Part shown: piece by piece, positions 4,235 to 18,406 of the stretch
How the letters are laid out: every line of letters starts with the position of its first letter
How positions within the stretch are numbered: position 1 is the first letter of the stretch
Assembly: GCA_016935565.1 (NCBI GenBank)
Contig: JAFGQS010000050.1
Location: forward strand, 1-55,125
Direction of reading: 5' to 3'
Source of the DNA: Deltaproteobacteria bacterium
Lineage (GTDB): Bacteria; Desulfobacterota; Syntrophia; Syntrophales; UBA6807
DNA: 55,125 bases
Notes under the pieces: model-generated
The model's database searches: none
What the model was told of the DNA's origin: nothing
Seen by the model: the letters and a program-made list of their open reading frames with translations, nothing else
Program-made: the position numbers and the translations under genes

Positions 4235-4828
4235 CTATGCTTCGATAATAGTTACTTTTAGTTTATTTTTCACGTTTACTTTGAATTGATTTGCTCCTAA
4301 CGTGATTTCATCACGATAAGTGTCATCACCCAGAACACAGGCACTAATATCTTCCTGATCTTGACCTTCCATTCCCGCATCGGTGAACCCCGAAATCATC
4401 GCCGTCGTCATCTTCGGTATTTCCAAACAGCAGCGACTCGGACCGGGGATATCGAATGCAGTGTCATAACTCTTGATTTTCATAACAGTTTGCCCAATAA
4501 GGAACCCTGCAGTATAGAGTTGGTCGTATGTTAAATGTGTTGATTCTCCTAAACCAAAGAGTAGAATTTTAGAGGAAGGGATTCGGTAATGAGGGGTAAT
4601 GAGGACCTTTTCCTTGAAATGTCCGGTAATCTTACCCCGAGCGATGTGTTTGGATATTATTCCATTGAGCCGCCAGTCAACAAAACCACAATACCCTTTT
4701 GGCGGTCTTTCATCAGAAAAAAATCCCAGAACCAGACTTTCATATTTCAGGATATCAACTGGTTCCGACGATATTCTTATCCGGGTCTTCCTGAAGTAAT
4801 TTTGTGTATAAGGCATCGAGTATACCAT
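4235..4828 (-). CDS. stand-alone N-terminal domain of M17 leucyl aminopeptidase family
   Basis: The 197-residue product matches only the N-terminal macro-like domain of leucyl aminopeptidases (Peptidase_M17_N), including LVLGFFSDERPPKG and a GLGE turn. The metal-binding catalytic domain is absent, and the gene ends cleanly with a TAA before trkA, so this is a short protein and not a visible truncation. Family members of this size are annotated without known function; a binding or regulatory role is only a guess. The homologous region starts near IRISSEPVD, and upstream codons overlap nusB by about 74 bases. The true start is uncertain (ATG at 4828 or 4816). Confidence 0.75.
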   Translation of the reverse strand: MVYSMPYTQNYFRKTRIRISSEPVDILKYESLVLGFFSDERPPKGYCGFVDWRLNGIISKHIARGKITGHFKEKVLITPHYRIPSSKILLFGLGESTHLTYDQLYTAGFLIGQTVMKIKSYDTAFDIPGPSRCCLEIPKMTTAMISGFTDAGMEGQDQEDISACVLGDDTYRDEITLGANQFKVNVKNKLKVTIIEA

Positions 4829-5195
4829 TTATAAAAGAGCCCGAGTTTTCCGACCCATAATATTTTCCAAGGTCAATTGCCTCATTGAGGGTTACCTTGG
4901 GTGGGATATCATCACAGTAAACAAGCTCGAAAACAGCCAGCCTCAGGATGTTCTTGTCTACTTTTGACATACGGTCAAGAGACCAGTTTTCAGAACAACT
5001 CTTGATGAGCTCATCTATTTCCATTAATTGGCTGTGGGTGCCTCTGATTAAGTGTGTCGAAAATTCTCTCACATTTTCCGGAGCTTCGAAGTTGTTCCAG
5101 AAAAGCTCGACAGCTTCGTCCACATCAACCTGTGAGACGTCAATCTGGAAAAGAACCTGTAAGGCGACTTCTCTTGCCTTTCTTCTCGTACCCAT
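4755..5195 (-). CDS. nusB: transcription antitermination protein NusB
   Basis: All-helical RNA-binding protein that, with NusE/S10, binds boxA RNA and supports antitermination on rRNA operons. The 146-residue length and start (MGTRRKAREVALQVLFQID) are typical, as is the C-terminal block TLNEAIDLGKYYG followed by SGSFINGILD. It sits 12 bases after ribH, the classic ribH-nusB pairing, and its 3' end overlaps the start of the M17 N-domain gene. Confidence 0.96.
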   Translation of the reverse strand: MGTRRKAREVALQVLFQIDVSQVDVDEAVELFWNNFEAPENVREFSTHLIRGTHSQLMEIDELIKSCSENWSLDRMSKVDKNILRLAVFELVYCDDIPPKVTLNEAIDLGKYYGSENSGSFINGILDALYTKLLQEDPDKNIVGTS

Positions 5196-5207
5196 TCAAT
5201 CCTCAGG

Positions 5208-5678
5208 CTACAGTGATTTAAAAAGATTGGCCATTTCAATTGCCGATAGAGCGGCATCCCATCCCTTATTGCCGGACTTTGTGCCGGCCCTCTCTATCGC
5301 CTGTTCAATCGTGTCAGTTGTTATAACACCGAAAGCAATCGGGACTTCTGTTTCCAGTGAAACGCTTGCAACTCCTTTTGACACTTCAGCACTGACATAC
5401 TCAAAATGCGGAGTAGCACCTCTGATGACGGCACCGAGACAGATAACGGCATCAAATTTTCCGCTCTTTGCCAGTTTTTTTGCAGCCAGCGGTATCTCGA
5501 ATGCCCCGGGGACCTTGACAACGGTGATATTCTTATCATCAGCCCCGGCTCTGATTAAGGCATCGATTGCACCTTCTGTCAGTCTGGCACAGATAAAATC
5601 ATTAAAACGGCTCACCACTATGCCAAATGTCAACCCTTTGGCAACAATTTTTCCTTCTGTCATCTTCGGCATAACCAT
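5208..5678 (-). CDS. ribH: 6,7-dimethyl-8-ribityllumazine synthase
   Basis: Penultimate enzyme of riboflavin synthesis. It condenses 5-amino-6-ribitylaminouracil with 3,4-dihydroxy-2-butanone 4-phosphate and usually forms a 60-mer capsid or pentamer. Length 156 is standard. Family motifs seen are [30 protein letters not shown] and [16 protein letters not shown], followed by [13 protein letters not shown]. It lies between ribBA and nusB on the same strand, so the substrate-forming and substrate-using enzymes are co-transcribed. Confidence 0.97.
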
Positions 5679-5767
5679 ATCTCCATTTTCAGGTTAGTTT
5701 GGTTACTGCGGATTGTTTCGCTGTTGATATCCACAATTGAAACACCATGAACAAAAGTGAATGCCGG

Positions 5768-6970
5768 CTATATATTTAATAAATGTCCCATTTTTCTCTT
5801 TTTTGTTGTCAGATAGTGGATACTGCTTTCGGTGGGCTTGATTTCAATGGGAACCCTCTCGACAACCTCGACACCGTATCCTTGAAGCCCTACAATTTTT
5901 TTCGGATTATTTGTCATCAAACGCATTTTCCTGATTCCAAGATCGACGAGAATCTGGGCTCCGATTCCGTAATCCCGGAGATCCGGCTTGAATCCAAGTT
6001 CGATATTTGCCTCGACAGTGTCTCTCCCGTGTTCCTGTAAGTCATACGCCTTGATCTTATTCTTGAGACCGATGCCCCTACCTTCCTGACGCATGTATAT
6101 AATAGCTCCCTTCCCCTCCTGCTGCACCATATGCATGGCGGTATGGAGTTGATCGCCGCAGTCACATCGCTCGGACGCAAAAACATCTCCGGTGAGGCAT
6201 TCAGAGTGTACCCTGACCAGAACTTCATCATCGGGTTGAATATCCCCTTTGACCAGAGCAAGGTGCTCTGAGTCGTTGACGACATTTTCATAAACGATAA
6301 GTGTGAAGGTACCTCCATAATAGGTTGGAACCGTTGCAGATGCAGCTCTCTTTACAAGGCTTTCGTTCTGCATCCTGAAATTAATCAGGTCGGCAATGGT
6401 AACGATCTTCAATCCGTGCTCTTCTGCAAAGATTTCCAGGTCGGGCATCCTCGCCATTGTTCCGTCATCTTTCATGACTTCGCAGATAACGCCGGCATGT
6501 TTCAAGCCCGCCAACCGAGCAAGATCAACCGATCCCTCTGTCTGTCCGGTTCTCACGAGCACGCCGCCCTTCCGGGCACGAATGGGGAAGACATGTCCCG
6601 GACTGACGATGTCGTCGGGTTCAGCATCGTCGGCAACGGCCGCCAATATGGTCGTCGCCCTGTCAGCAGCGGAAATTCCTGTGGTGACGCCCTTTCGGGC
6701 TTCGATTGATACAGTAAAGGCGGTACCGAATCGGGATTGATTATCTCTTACCATGAGCGGAAGATATAATTTATCGGCAAGATCGTCGGAAAGGGAAAGA
6801 CAGATCAGACCTCTGCCATATTTTGCCATGAAATTAATGGCTTCCGGCGTTGCATGTTCTGCCGCCATGCAGAGATCACCCTCGTTTTCTCGATCCTCAT
6901 CATCGACGAGAATTATAATTTTACCATTTTTGATATCTTCAATTGCTTCTTGTATTGTACTGATTGGCAT
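5768..6970 (-). CDS. ribBA: bifunctional DHBP synthase / GTP cyclohydrolase II
   Basis: A fusion of two entry enzymes of riboflavin synthesis, 400 residues. The N-terminal half (about 1-200) makes 3,4-dihydroxy-2-butanone 4-phosphate from ribulose 5-phosphate, with the acidic metal motif [11 protein letters not shown]. The C-terminal half (about 205-400) is GTP cyclohydrolase II: the zinc cysteines are in [10 protein letters not shown] and [11 protein letters not shown], and the GTP-binding stretch is [10 protein letters not shown]. No flavin riboswitch sequence was recognised in the 123-base gap to ribE, so FMN control is not evident here. Confidence 0.97.
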
Positions 6971-7093
6971 TGTATTGCTACCTCGTATTCCTGACGTTCA
7001 GCATGCAGCCGTCAGCTTATAGAAAAATTTTTACTATTTTATCAAGTAAAAAAATTATTAGCTTCGTCCGGAAAGCATTTTTTCGCTGAACGA

Positions 7094-7735
7094 TCACGTA
7101 TTATTTAAAAATCCATGTTCCGACAAAAAATTCATATTGATTTCTTTATCAGGGTGGATTAGTTTGTCGACATATTTGCCCAGTATATCCGTTTCAATGT
7201 TTACCGGGTCTCTGACTTTCCTCGCATCCAGCGTTGTCTCCTTCGCCGTGTGAGGAATGATATTAACATAAAATCTGTTTTTTTCACACCTGTTAACGGT
7301 GAGACTGACACCGTCGATTGCTATCGATCCCTTCGGTACGACATATTTGCTTAATTCTTTATCAATTTCCACACCAAAGATGATGGAATTCGATTTTTCG
7401 AGCCGTTCGTAGATGTTTCCAACACCGTCAACATGTCCCAGGACAAGATGTCCTCCTAAAAATGAATTGAGCCGCAGGGCTTTTTCCAGGTTGACCCTGT
7501 CACCCCGTTTTAATGTATTCAGGGTTGTTTTTGCCAGCGTTTCTGCCGAAACATCTGCGACGAATCCCCTGTCGTTCAAACTTGTTACGGTGAGACAGGC
7601 ACCGCTGACGGCAACACTGTCTCCGATTTTGACATCATCAAGGCTCATGGATGTATCAATTTCCAGAAGGATATCGTCTCCTTTTCTGGTTATCATTTTA
7701 ACCACACCCATGCTCTCTATGATACCGGTGAACAT
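7094..7735 (-). CDS. ribE: riboflavin synthase, alpha chain
   Basis: Final enzyme of riboflavin synthesis, dismutating two 6,7-dimethyl-8-ribityllumazine molecules. The 213-residue protein starts with the invariant MFTGIIESMG and has two lumazine-binding repeats; each carries an SVAVSGACLTV or SIAIDGVSLTV block. It starts only six bases after nrdR. ribD, which often sits between nrdR and ribE in related genomes, is not here and must be encoded elsewhere if the pathway is complete. Confidence 0.96.
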   Translation of the reverse strand: MFTGIIESMGVVKMITRKGDDILLEIDTSMSLDDVKIGDSVAVSGACLTVTSLNDRGFVADVSAETLAKTTLNTLKRGDRVNLEKALRLNSFLGGHLVLGHVDGVGNIYERLEKSNSIIFGVEIDKELSKYVVPKGSIAIDGVSLTVNRCEKNRFYVNIIPHTAKETTLDARKVRDPVNIETDILGKYVDKLIHPDKEINMNFLSEHGFLNNT

Positions 7736-7741
7736 TACTGA

Positions 7742-8239
7742 TTAATCATCCTTCTCCGTTAATCGATCTGTTTTTCTTTTCTTTTGCTTGACACCCATAA
7801 AATCCTTCAACTGATCTAAAAACTCATTGGGATCTTTAAAATCCTTGTAAACGGATGCAAATCTCACATAGGCAACGCCATCGAGATCATTCAGCACTTC
7901 CATGACCTGTTCACCGATGACCGATGTGGGAATTTCTTTTAATTGTAGATCCTGACATGCGTGCTCTATCCTGTTGACAATGTCGTCTATGACATCAACA
8001 CTGATCGGCCTCTTTTCGCACGCCTTTTTTATTCCTGCGAGAATCTTCCCTCTTTCAAACGCTTCTCTCCTCCCGTCCTTCTTAACAACCATGGGAAGGA
8101 CATCTTCCACAAATTCGTATGTCGTAAATCGTTTGCCGCAGGCAATGCATTCTCTTCTCCTTCGAATAGCATTACCTTCTTTGCTTATACGGGAGTCGAT
8201 AACTTTGTTTTCTCCGTTTGTGCAGAATGGGCACTTCAA
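7742..8239 (-). CDS. nrdR: transcriptional repressor NrdR
   Basis: Nucleotide-sensing repressor of ribonucleotide reductase genes. It has an N-terminal zinc ribbon (CPFC at residues 3-6 and CIACGKRF) and an ATP-cone domain beginning at [17 protein letters not shown]. At 165 residues it carries a slightly longer basic/acidic tail than the usual 150-155. Its start overlaps the comEB stop by four bases. Pairing with a dCMP deaminase puts control of the dNTP pool and pyrimidine supply in one transcript. Confidence 0.96.
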
Positions 8240-8721
8240 AACTTGCTTACCTCAATATGAGCTTCTTTAAGCATTTCATGGGCCAGCATATCGCTGTACC
8301 CATCCTTGTATATTATCCTTTTGATTCCAGAGTTTATGATCATTTTGGAACATATGATACAGGGGTGATTCGTACAATACATTGTTGCGCCTTTGATACT
8401 GACGCCATGGAGCGCCGCCTGAATAATAGCATTTTGTTCTGCGTGAAGTCCACGGCATAATTCATGACGTTCACCTGAAGGGACTTTCATCTGTTTTCTG
8501 AGACATCCGATGTCAAGACAGTGACGAAGTCCCGAGGGAGCGCCGTTGTAACCGGTCGACAGAATTCTCTTGTCCCGCACTAAAACGGCACCGACTTTAC
8601 GTCGTACGCACGTGGAGCGTTTAGAGACGAGCCCCACAATATCCATAAAATACTGGTCCCAGCTCGGTCTTTGCCTTTGTGTTTCCTGTCCCGAGTTGTT
8701 TGTCTCCGGTTTTGCCGTCAT
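8236..8721 (-). CDS. comEB: deoxycytidylate (dCMP) deaminase, ComEB type
   Basis: Zinc enzyme that converts dCMP to dUMP for thymidylate synthesis. The catalytic zinc motif is intact: LHAEQNAI supplies the His and the proton-shuttling Glu, and [11 protein letters not shown] supplies the two Cys. At 161 residues it fits ComEB/dCMP deaminase and is too short for RibD. The CxxC-rich insert [13 protein letters not shown] and the [11 protein letters not shown] stretch match the allosteric dCTP-binding family. It lies directly downstream of the glyA relic. Confidence 0.93.
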
Positions 8722-8787
8722 TACATGTATGCCTTCATGTGTTGTCTGTCGGGCTGTGATTTTATCTAAAATCCTTTGTAATCCTGA

Positions 8788-8962
8788 TTAGACAGACTTC
8801 GCGATTCGATCTCCGTAAAGGGGTAATCGTTCACAGCGCGAGCTTATCTCGCTTTTTACCTCTTCGATCCCTTTTCATTGTGGACATCGTCCCGGCCTGC
8901 CGTTTCGTTTCCAGTGTGATAGCTTGAACAACTTCAGGGTTACTGTGTGATAAAAGCGGCAT
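8788..8962 (-). pseudogene. glyA: glyA (serine hydroxymethyltransferase) remnant with a large internal deletion
   Basis: A ribosome site (GAGAGGAAATGCAGGA) and ATG at 8962 open a frame reading MPLLSHSNPEVVQAITLETK, the start of a GlyA protein (family pattern DPEI-x-AI-x-ET-x-RQ). After about 25 codons the match stops; this frame ends at 8831. In another frame the DNA then reads EEVKSEISSRCERLPLYGDR and stops at 8788, which is the typical GlyA C-terminus (CERFPLY). About 350 of some 415 codons are missing, plus a frameshift. The relic is exactly where glyA normally lies in this gene order, between rpiB and comEB. It cannot make an active enzyme. Confidence 0.8.
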
Positions 8963-9024
8963 TCCTGCATTTCCTCTCGGTTGACATATGGCGATTCCGG
9001 CTGCACTTCAGTCTTATCTCTCGA

Positions 9025-9483
9025 TTACCAAGTTTTGTCTCTATAGTTGTTTTCTATATTTCTGATTTTGTCAAGTCGTCTTTTATGCCGTCCGCCATCA
9101 AATTCCGTTTCAAGCCATGTTGTAACAATCGTTTGGGCAGTTTCAACATCCGTTCTTCTTCCTGCAAGGGCAAGAACGTTCGTATCGTTATGCATCCTGC
9201 TCATTTGTGCCGTATCAGTATCGAGACATAGAACAGCCCTTACACCAGGGACCTTATTGGCCACGATGGTCATACCGACACCGGATCCGCAGACGAGGAT
9301 TCCTCGTTCAAACTCGCCGGATGAGACCTTTTCGGCCACCGTGAAAGCAAAGTCGGGATAGTCGACTGATTTGTTACTCCCGGTTCCCACGTCTATCACG
9401 TCTCCATACGTATTATTGAGGAAATACTTGATATGTTCTTTCAGGGCGAACCCGGCATGATCTGACCCTATGATTATATTCAC
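9025..9483 (-). CDS. rpiB: ribose-5-phosphate isomerase B
   Basis: Interconverts ribose 5-phosphate and ribulose 5-phosphate; the latter is the substrate of RibBA further down the same transcript. The 152-residue length is standard. Motifs are GSDHAGFALKEHIK at the N-terminus, the catalytic cysteine in LVCGSGVGM, and HNDTNVLALAGR. It sits 12 bases after fabF and about 60 bases before the glyA relic. Confidence 0.95.
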   Translation of the reverse strand: MNIIIGSDHAGFALKEHIKYFLNNTYGDVIDVGTGSNKSVDYPDFAFTVAEKVSSGEFERGILVCGSGVGMTIVANKVPGVRAVLCLDTDTAQMSRMHNDTNVLALAGRRTDVETAQTIVTTWLETEFDGGRHKRRLDKIRNIENNYRDKTW

Positions 9484-9495
9484 AATATGAATTCC

Positions 9496-10737
9496 TTATT
9501 CTTCGAATTTCTTAAATATGAGGACGGCGTTTGCACCTCCGAAGCCGAAGGTGTTGGACATGGCTGTATGGATATCTTTTTTCCTCATTGTGTGTGGAAT
9601 GAGATCAAGGTCACATTCGGGGTCTGGATTATCCAGATTGATGGTGGGGGGAATAATTCCGTCATCAATTGATTTTATCGAGATAATTGTCTCTAACCCC
9701 CCGGCGGCTCCGAGGAGATGACCTGTCATGGATTTTGTCGAACTGACTGCCAACTTCCGGCAGTGATCACCGAAGACCTTCTTGATTGCTTCGATTTCAT
9801 ATCTGTCATTCAGCGGAGTCGACGTGCCGTGGGCATTAATATAGTCAATATCAGATGGTTCCATGCCGGCTTCCTGCAATGCAAGCTGCATAGATCTCAC
9901 CGCACCCGGATGACCCGGCGGCGGTGCCGCTATGTGATAGGCGTCGCAGGTCGATCCGAATCCCGATACTTCCGCATATATCGTAGCACCTCTGTCTAAT
10001 GCAAAGGACAATTCTTCCAGGATGACGATACCGCAGCCATCACTCATGATGAAACCGTCACGATCTCTGTCAAAGGGTCTGCTTGCTGCTTCGGGGTTGT
10101 CGTTTCGCGTGGAAATTGCTCTCATGGCATTGAACGCGGCAACGGCAAGGGGGGAGACGGCCGCTTCGGCCCCTCCTGAGATCATTGCGTCCGCGAAGCC
10201 ATAGGCGATTGTTCTGAAGGCGTCGCCAATGGCGTTGTTGCCCGCTGAACAGGCAGTTACCGCACAGGATATGGGCCCCCTGGTGCCGAACTTTATTGCC
10301 ACCGTGCCGGCGGCAAGGTTTGCCAGAGCCCCCGGGATCGTGAATGGGGATATTTTTTTAGGGCCGGTCTTCAGGAGAACTTCTTTTTCTCTTTCTATGG
10401 TTGTAATTCCGCCGATGCCGGAACCGATAATAATGCCGATACGGTCGGCATTTGTCTCATCAATGATGAGTCCTGCATCGTCCAGTGCCATTTCAGCAGA
10501 TGCGAGGGCATAGATGATAAAATCATCAAACCGTCGGACCTCCTTTGGCGTGATAAATGACAGGGGATCGAAATTCTTCACCTCGCCGGCTATTTTTGTT
10601 CTCAAACCGCTCGTATCGAATTTTGTAATGGGAGCGATTCCCGATTTTCCGGCACAAATCCCTTCCCAGGTATCACTTACACAGTTACCGATGGGATTAA
10701 CGGTTCCCAATCCTGTGACGACGACTCTTTTTTTCAA
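9496..10737 (-). CDS. fabF: beta-ketoacyl-ACP synthase II
   Basis: Condensing enzyme of fatty-acid elongation using malonyl-ACP. It is a 413-residue thiolase-fold protein with the full Cys-His-His triad: the nucleophile in TACSAGNN, His in NAHGTSTPLND, and His in STKSMTGHLLGAAGG. It follows acpP, its substrate carrier, by 30 bases. With no fabH in this cluster, the initiating condensing enzyme must be supplied from elsewhere. Confidence 0.97.
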   Translation of the reverse strand: MKKRVVVTGLGTVNPIGNCVSDTWEGICAGKSGIAPITKFDTSGLRTKIAGEVKNFDPLSFITPKEVRRFDDFIIYALASAEMALDDAGLIIDETNADRIGIIIGSGIGGITTIEREKEVLLKTGPKKISPFTIPGALANLAAGTVAIKFGTRGPISCAVTACSAGNNAIGDAFRTIAYGFADAMISGGAEAAVSPLAVAAFNAMRAISTRNDNPEAASRPFDRDRDGFIMSDGCGIVILEELSFALDRGATIYAEVSGFGSTCDAYHIAAPPPGHPGAVRSMQLALQEAGMEPSDIDYINAHGTSTPLNDRYEIEAIKKVFGDHCRKLAVSSTKSMTGHLLGAAGGLETIISIKSIDDGIIPPTINLDNPDPECDLDLIPHTMRKKDIHTAMSNTFGFGGANAVLIFKKFEE

Positions 10738-17149: not shown

Positions 17150-18406
17150 ATGATGAAAAAAAGTTCAGTATTTTACGTGAATTGTACGTTGTTTGTCGCA
17201 CTTGTGACGGTACTGTTAATTTCAATGCCGGTGTTCTGCTATGGAGACCTGCACTCCAACAGCGACTCGGTCCCGATCGTCGCGGATGAAGACGATACCA
17301 TACCGGTCAGCGACTTAGGCAGGCAAATAGACATACTGGCATACAAACTTGAGAATCTTGAAAATTCGCTCAAGGGGGTATTGCAATCCGTTACAAAGAC
17401 AAACGAATACATAAAAACCGAGTTAGTCGACGCGGAGAGCGAAGATCCGGGTATCGTCAAAAATGTCGTATGGATGATCGCTTCCGAAAGGCAGGAGGTT
17501 GAAAACGCACTTAAAGAGCAGCGTGAACTCAAAGCATTGTTGAAATACTATGGTTCTGTTCTCAAGGAAAAGACTGCCCTACTCGAAAAAAATGCGGGCA
17601 GTCCCGCCACGACAGCAGGGGCGGGGACTACTGAAATAAAGACCGAAGCTGCACTCAGTAAAAACGGACCCGCGCCTCAAAAGGCAGAAACGGCGATCGT
17701 AACCACGGGAAACACTCCCCTGCTCGAAAAAAATGCGGACATTTCCGCCAAGCCGGCGGCGGCAATTACTGAAATAAAGACCGAAGCTGCACTCAGTGAA
17801 AACGGACCCGCGCCTCAAAAGGCGGAAACGACGGTCGTAACTGCGGAAAATACTCTCCTCCGGAGGGATAACAAGGAAGGACCCATAACGATCACCCACG
17901 TGGCAATCGGCCTTATCCTCATCTTCGTTGTCGTTTTACTCATCGTGACGCTGACGATATTTCAGAAGATCAGCGGCCACATGAACGATTCCGAAGAATT
18001 GCGGGTGGGTACTGCGGTTCCATTGCCAACAGCCCGGGACTCGAAATCAGGGACTAACGGGAATGTGGATCACTCCCTGCCCATCGTTGTCGGCGAGGCC
18101 ATTTTCAGAATACGGATGACGATGAACGGTGTGGACAAATCCAATGAACAGTTTGCGGCCTTCGGGTACCAGATGAGCCGCGTGGAAGATGCCATAATGC
18201 GGCACGGTTATTCCATTGTCGATCTGACGGGGAAACCTTATGAAAATGAGCAGTCGATGAAAGTCGTCAATATTGTTGAACGTGATGATATCGACCCAGG
18301 GGCAACGATCATCAACAGAATGTTAAAGCCGCGGATTATGTACGACACCATCATCGTCAGCCATGGTACGGTCGAGCTTGCCACATCATCGAAAGCAAAA
18401 AATTGA
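17150..18406 (+). CDS. uncharacterised single-pass membrane protein with tandem 47-residue repeat
   Basis: I do not recognise this 418-residue protein. Visible parts in order are a signal-like hydrophobic N-terminus (about 1-30), a charged probably coiled region (about 50-140), and two tandem repeats of 47 and 46 residues (144-236) starting LLEKNA. A transmembrane helix follows (about 248-270, VAIGLILIFVVVLLIVTLTIF), then a C-terminal domain of about 145 residues. The Ala/Thr/Pro/Lys-rich repeat resembles a flexible linker. A ribosome site (AAGGAG) precedes paired ATGs. The C-terminal domain ends with a segment (DTIIVSHGTVELA) that I cannot assign. It is monocistronic behind its own promoter. 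Confidence 0.7.
   Translation: MMKKSSVFYVNCTLFVALVTVLLISMPVFCYGDLHSNSDSVPIVADEDDTIPVSDLGRQIDILAYKLENLENSLKGVLQSVTKTNEYIKTELVDAESEDPGIVKNVVWMIASERQEVENALKEQRELKALLKYYGSVLKEKTALLEKNAGSPATTAGAGTTEIKTEAALSKNGPAPQKAETAIVTTGNTPLLEKNADISAKPAAAITEIKTEAALSENGPAPQKAETTVVTAENTLLRRDNKEGPITITHVAIGLILIFVVVLLIVTLTIFQKISGHMNDSEELRVGTAVPLPTARDSKSGTNGNVDHSLPIVVGEAIFRIRMTMNGVDKSNEQFAAFGYQMSRVEDAIMRHGYSIVDLTGKPYENEQSMKVVNIVERDDIDPGATIINRMLKPRIMYDTIIVSHGTVELATSSKAKN
17579..17857 (+). repeat. tandem in-frame duplication (141 and 138 bp)
   Basis: Unit 1 is 17579-17719 and unit 2 is 17720-17857. They share long identical blocks, including one of about 30 bases around ACTGAAATAAAGACCGAAGC, and diverge in the Ala/Gly-rich part. 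High nucleotide identity indicates a recent duplication within the linker. Confidence 0.85.

Follow-up and report, generated by a model that had tools for sequence, protein, structure and literature searches.

A relic of glyA in a conserved operon

The window, i.e. the whole stretch of 55,125 nucleotides analysed here, is contig C27 of a 3.06-Mb MAG (G000; 196 contigs, 99.15% complete, 3.39% estimated contamination). Its minus strand carries a housekeeping operon in the order fabF-rpiB-(glyA)-comEB-nrdR-ribE-ribBA-ribH-nusB. The fabF gene (9496-10737) lies upstream of rpiB in synteny with G001, G003, G004, G006, G007 and G026, and is followed by intact copies of rpiB (9025-9483), comEB (dCMP deaminase; 8236-8721) and nrdR (7742-8239), the latter continuing the operon into the conserved ribE, ribBA, ribH and nusB genes (4755-7735; also syntenic with relatives). 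The original prediction, that the operon is intact apart from glyA and that glyA usually sits at this place in related genomes, agrees with what we found: the remaining gene order is that of the relatives, nearly all of which, among those examined, have the arrangement rpiB-glyA-comEB, marking the site as the ancestral position of the gene. We also considered a second deletion, given that ribD is absent between nrdR and ribE (7735-7742), and rejected it because the gene order is the same in the relatives examined. Elsewhere in the window, an ORF at 61-1041 resembles a REP-associated (Y1-type) transposase, judged from sequence only, and an ORF at 17150-18406 contains an internal near-duplicate, with TEIKTEAALS.NGPAPQKAET present twice.

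Positions 8722-9024, flanked by the stop of rpiB (9025) and the start of comEB (8721), hold the first ~26 and the last ~28 codons of GlyA. A GlyA start (ATG at 8962) and a GlyA end (stop at 8790-8788) lie on the minus strand in different frames, exactly where the original prediction had placed them. The N-terminal arm (MPLLSHSNPEVVQAITLETKRQAGTM) spans 8885-8962; the C-terminal arm (DDVHNEK, a frameshift, GIEEVKSEISSRCERLPLYGDRIAKSV and the stop) spans 8788-8891. When compared by tblastn with the loci of ~50 relatives, both pieces matched GlyA termini (58-62% identity at best, E ~1e-6 to 1e-7), and these matches come from same-family genomes, at the equivalent rpiB-glyA-comEB position. Profile HMMs of the GlyA ends, built from 27 relatives and run against a six-frame translation of 351 kb of genome sequence, gave one significant match each, both in the relic interval (E=2.3e-8 for the N end, E=1.2e-7 for the C end), with next-best matches at E values of 2.9 and 0.17, respectively. 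Since the sole significant matches fall in this interval, chance resemblance to glyA is excluded. With ~1.08 kb gone and the two frames in disagreement, the coding capacity of the gene has been destroyed. The relic is real with near certainty, and by homology and position the interval is the decayed remnant of a canonical glyA within an otherwise intact operon.

Alignment of the scar at the nucleotide level with G002, G003 and G004 placed the deletion junction at GACGATG (8885-8891). The N arm ends at codon ~26; the C arm opens with GACGATGTCCACAATGAAAAG, the counterpart of D-D-I-H-N-D-K in G004. Given that GACGATG (8891-8885) is compatible with both arms, a short repeat may have mediated the break, and a short microhomology at the junction is possible. 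Relative to the 418-codon glyA of G004, the loss amounts to ~1082 nt (~360 codons); intact glyA genes of relatives occupy ~1.26 kb at the equivalent site. An additional 1-nt deletion near 8872 (AAAG-GGATC), separate from the large one, adds a frameshift in the C arm. The proposed loss of about 350 codons in a single internal deletion that left both gene ends is thus close in kind and size, but at least one extra 1-nt indel has to be added to it.

A divergent SHMT homologue on a second contig

A PF00464 profile search of the 3.06-Mb, 99.15% complete genome revealed no other canonical glyA, nor a fragment of one. The only match genome-wide lies at C146:35-1498 and scores 120 bits, where complete glyA genes of relatives mostly reach 480-587 bits. 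In a survey of 155 genomes of the same order, no other genome clearly displayed such a switch; a few genomes, mostly incomplete, gave partial or no SHMT matches. One genome of this order (G430, 95% complete) has no SHMT match whatsoever. G005, a member of the same family without an SHMT match, was considered as a further case of glyA loss and rejected, as its contig ends inside comEB and glyA may be unassembled.

The C146 gene encodes a protein of 488 aa (P0001) that shares ~30% identity with canonical GlyA. It belongs to the same family as canonical GlyA and has its PLP lysine and catalytic set, but differs in sequence and genomic location, whereas the relic retains the ends and position of canonical GlyA without ~360 of its codons. 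P0001 passes the Pfam SHMT model (PF00464; 124.5 bits vs a gathering score of 27) and fails the cut-offs of the NCBIfam models PRK00011 (bacterial SHMT; 262.5 vs 335 bits) and TIGR04506 (fluorothreonine transaldolase; 143 vs 650 bits). Residues K266, D237, H240, H157, R405, E33, Y52 and N388 (P0001 numbering) are invariant in its clade and common to canonical GlyA; we take K266 to be the PLP lysine, D237 and the histidines to surround PLP, and R405 to be the substrate arginine, following general knowledge of SHMTs. An AF2 model (pLDDT 86.6, pTM 0.87) predicts the SHMT fold, and a fold search returned Methanocaldococcus jannaschii SHMT (4bhd/4uqv) as the best match, then an L-threonine transaldolase (7k34), then other SHMTs. 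Likewise, a profile of the clade scores 280 bits for M. jannaschii SHMT vs 139 for the best bacterial SHMT.

The methanogen enzyme can use tetrahydromethanopterin (H4MPT) (PMC3697235). It shares with the P0001 clade the STHKTFFGPQ loop at the PLP lysine and is its best match in both sequence and fold, but is only ~30% identical to P0001, which carries insertions and resides in a bacterial host with a THF-type glycine cleavage system. The GcvT fusions of its relatives, described below, suggest a folate of the THF type for P0001. L-threonine transaldolase (7k34), taken together with fluorothreonine transaldolase (TIGR04506), ranks second in both sequence profile and fold, and the similarity to L-threonine transaldolase makes another aldol-type activity of P0001 possible; however, P0001 is far under the fluorothreonine transaldolase cut-off, and both its distribution and its linkage to gcv genes point to housekeeping C1 metabolism.

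The P0001 gene begins 35 bases from the end of its contig, and we considered contamination as the source of C146. This was rejected on tetranucleotide composition and the znu operon of the contig. The tetranucleotide profile of C146 lies within the range of 56 chunks of the genome, a range that excludes most contigs from other genomes, including two of three family members tested (the third, G004, is at the edge), and ZnuA and ZnuB, encoded on C146 as part of znuABC, are nearest to those of same-family genomes (61-63% and 79%). At the level of the contig, this evidence assigns C146 to the genome. With P0001 as a plausible replacement for the lost glyA, this bacterium probably does not lack SHMT.

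A complete glycine cleavage operon with separate genes (gcvT-H-PA-PB) is present on C149, as are lipA and lpd, these two named from sequence, and fhs was not found in this genome. SHMT, glycine cleavage or both are thus the probable entry points of C1 units. The original prediction, by which serine, glycine and C1 metabolism would have to be rewired if no other glyA existed, finds no support where a homologue that keeps the catalytic residues of SHMT is encoded by the same genome; it is further countered by the distribution of the divergent gene, which elsewhere usually occurs where glyA is absent.

Divergent SHMTs and glyA loss in other bacteria

A scan of ~85,000 species genomes recovered relatives that are 47-77% identical to P0001 and occur chiefly in Aminicenantes/Acidobacteriota, WOR-3, Dehalococcoidia and Desulfobacterota. 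Canonical glyA is absent from 40 of 50 genomes with the divergent gene (MAGs of varying completeness); the other ten have both genes, so that replacement of glyA by the divergent enzyme is not universal. Among holders of the fusion type described below, 7/14 have no canonical glyA. In a survey of the phylum (296 genomes, each at least 90% complete), all sampled members of one family (f25) and genomes of another (f37) contain an SHMT of the divergent class only; one further f37 genome gave no match. Five other families in this survey (f22, f29, f51, f85 and f102) have best SHMT matches of intermediate strength (E values of 1e-56 to 1e-68), falling between canonical and divergent SHMTs; these may represent another SHMT type or fragments.

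In five glyA-less Desulfobacterota that carry the divergent gene, rpiB and comEB are adjacent, which indicates loss of glyA at this site in other lineages, too. Inspection by eye of the rpiB-comEB gaps of G097 and G100-G103 in three frames recognised no glyA relics. A palindromic repeat of the CACAGATGAACACAGAT type is found in the gap of two glyA-less genomes (L175:1300-1540 and L178:1900-2140).

At ~20 loci, the divergent SHMT forms the C-terminal half of a single protein whose N-terminal half is GcvT. These fusions comprise ~880-970 aa (L117 and L119-L138, e.g. L119:3696-6377) and their hosts include many Desulfobacterota as well as Dehalococcoidales, Phycisphaerae and Kiritimatiellae; at several other loci, gcvH lies close to the divergent SHMT gene. 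The fusion suggests that two THF-dependent steps are coupled. No prior account of a GcvT-SHMT fusion or of the divergent SHMT clade was found in the open-access literature searched.

In a tree of 75 rows (quick search, SH-aLRT support only, root not inferred), P0001 is nested within Aminicenantes/Acidobacteriota sequences, far from the fusions of Desulfobacterota, and has a protein from a deltaproteobacterial MAG as its partner. This nesting in a foreign clade supports horizontal acquisition.

Discussion

Almost all organisms possess SHMT, and in bacteria glyA is regarded as its invariable gene. We propose, with a probability of roughly 0.8, that in the genome studied here glyA has undergone xenologous displacement by a divergent SHMT working beside glycine cleavage: a replacement that nests in a foreign clade lies, by contig-level evidence, in the same genome as the remnant of the native gene. 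The lineage would have acquired the distant SHMT (488 aa, C146) from a source of the Aminicenantes/Acidobacteriota type, the donor being our best guess from the tree. In the order of events that we envisage, glyA would then have become dispensable, a deletion of ~1.08 kb would have taken out its core, and the remaining ends would have drifted. The acquired enzyme would most likely interconvert serine and glycine with 5,10-methylene-THF and would operate alongside the complete glycine cleavage system encoded on C149. Pseudogene relics left after displacement show the same pattern, a foreign homologue plus a native scar at the ancestral place; what sets the present case apart is a replacement from within a distant clade that is fused to GcvT in other bacteria.

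The main rival to displacement is threonine-derived glycine. In this scenario, glyA was lost because glycine is obtained from threonine via threonine aldolase (LtaE) and C1 units from glycine via glycine cleavage, and the divergent PLP enzyme has another function. In E. coli, LtaE provides an alternative path to glycine (PMC9769978), and the genome studied here has, in addition to its complete gcvT-H-PA-PB operon, a full LtaE-type gene on C190 (C190:21789-22643; L252), which scores 334 bits for PRK10534 (cut-off 312) and 511 bits for its best model, a GntG-family aldolase. The family members G001-G004 have no strong match to this aldolase. LtaE-type genes are moreover found in ~29/39 distinct genomes with only the divergent SHMT vs 1/14 canonical relatives checked, counts that are not corrected for phylogeny. 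However, ~9 divergent-only genomes have no full LtaE-type match, and two of these, the Dehalococcoidia G086 and G091, have the divergent gene and neither canonical glyA nor a GcvT or LtaE-type match; many genomes also have the divergent protein fused to GcvT, and it keeps the catalytic residues of SHMT. We therefore consider it unlikely that the threonine route accounts for the loss on its own, and the LtaE route and the divergent SHMT may coexist here. As a separate observation, the threonine aldolase/GntG-type gene on C190 may have been acquired around the time of glyA loss.

An artefact, in which an intact glyA collapsed during assembly or the divergent gene stems from a contaminating contig, might be suspected for a MAG of 196 contigs with 3.39% estimated contamination. 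Yet a mis-join is not expected to produce the extra 1-nt deletion of the relic, no fragment of a canonical glyA is found anywhere else in the genome, and C146 agrees with that genome in composition and in its znu operon, which together leave this explanation very improbable. Reuse of the 306-bp interval is hardly credible. Under such a reading, the ORF of 43 codons that opens with the ATG at 8962, or the RNA of that ORF, would be functional. Both the ATG and the open frame do persist, but the latter is no more than the GlyA start read on into the C arm in the wrong frame.

Displacement of glyA by the divergent SHMT, our preferred reading, could be one instance of a broader process. Tentatively, and with more doubt than confidence, we suggest that an unrecognised second clade of bacterial SHMTs, related to the methanogen enzyme, has repeatedly replaced glyA; that it is coupled to glycine cleavage, as in the GcvT-SHMT fusion; that it perhaps acts mainly from glycine to serine, using glycine from threonine aldolase; and that the scar between rpiB and comEB catches one such replacement midway.

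Because this genome combines a scar at the ancestral site of glyA with a distant replacement, the proposed displacement of a central enzyme can be read from it directly. Our data also indicate a widespread SHMT clade that scores below the cut-off in curated GlyA models and, for this reason, genome annotation and metabolic models may report gaps in glycine, serine and C1 metabolism that do not exist.
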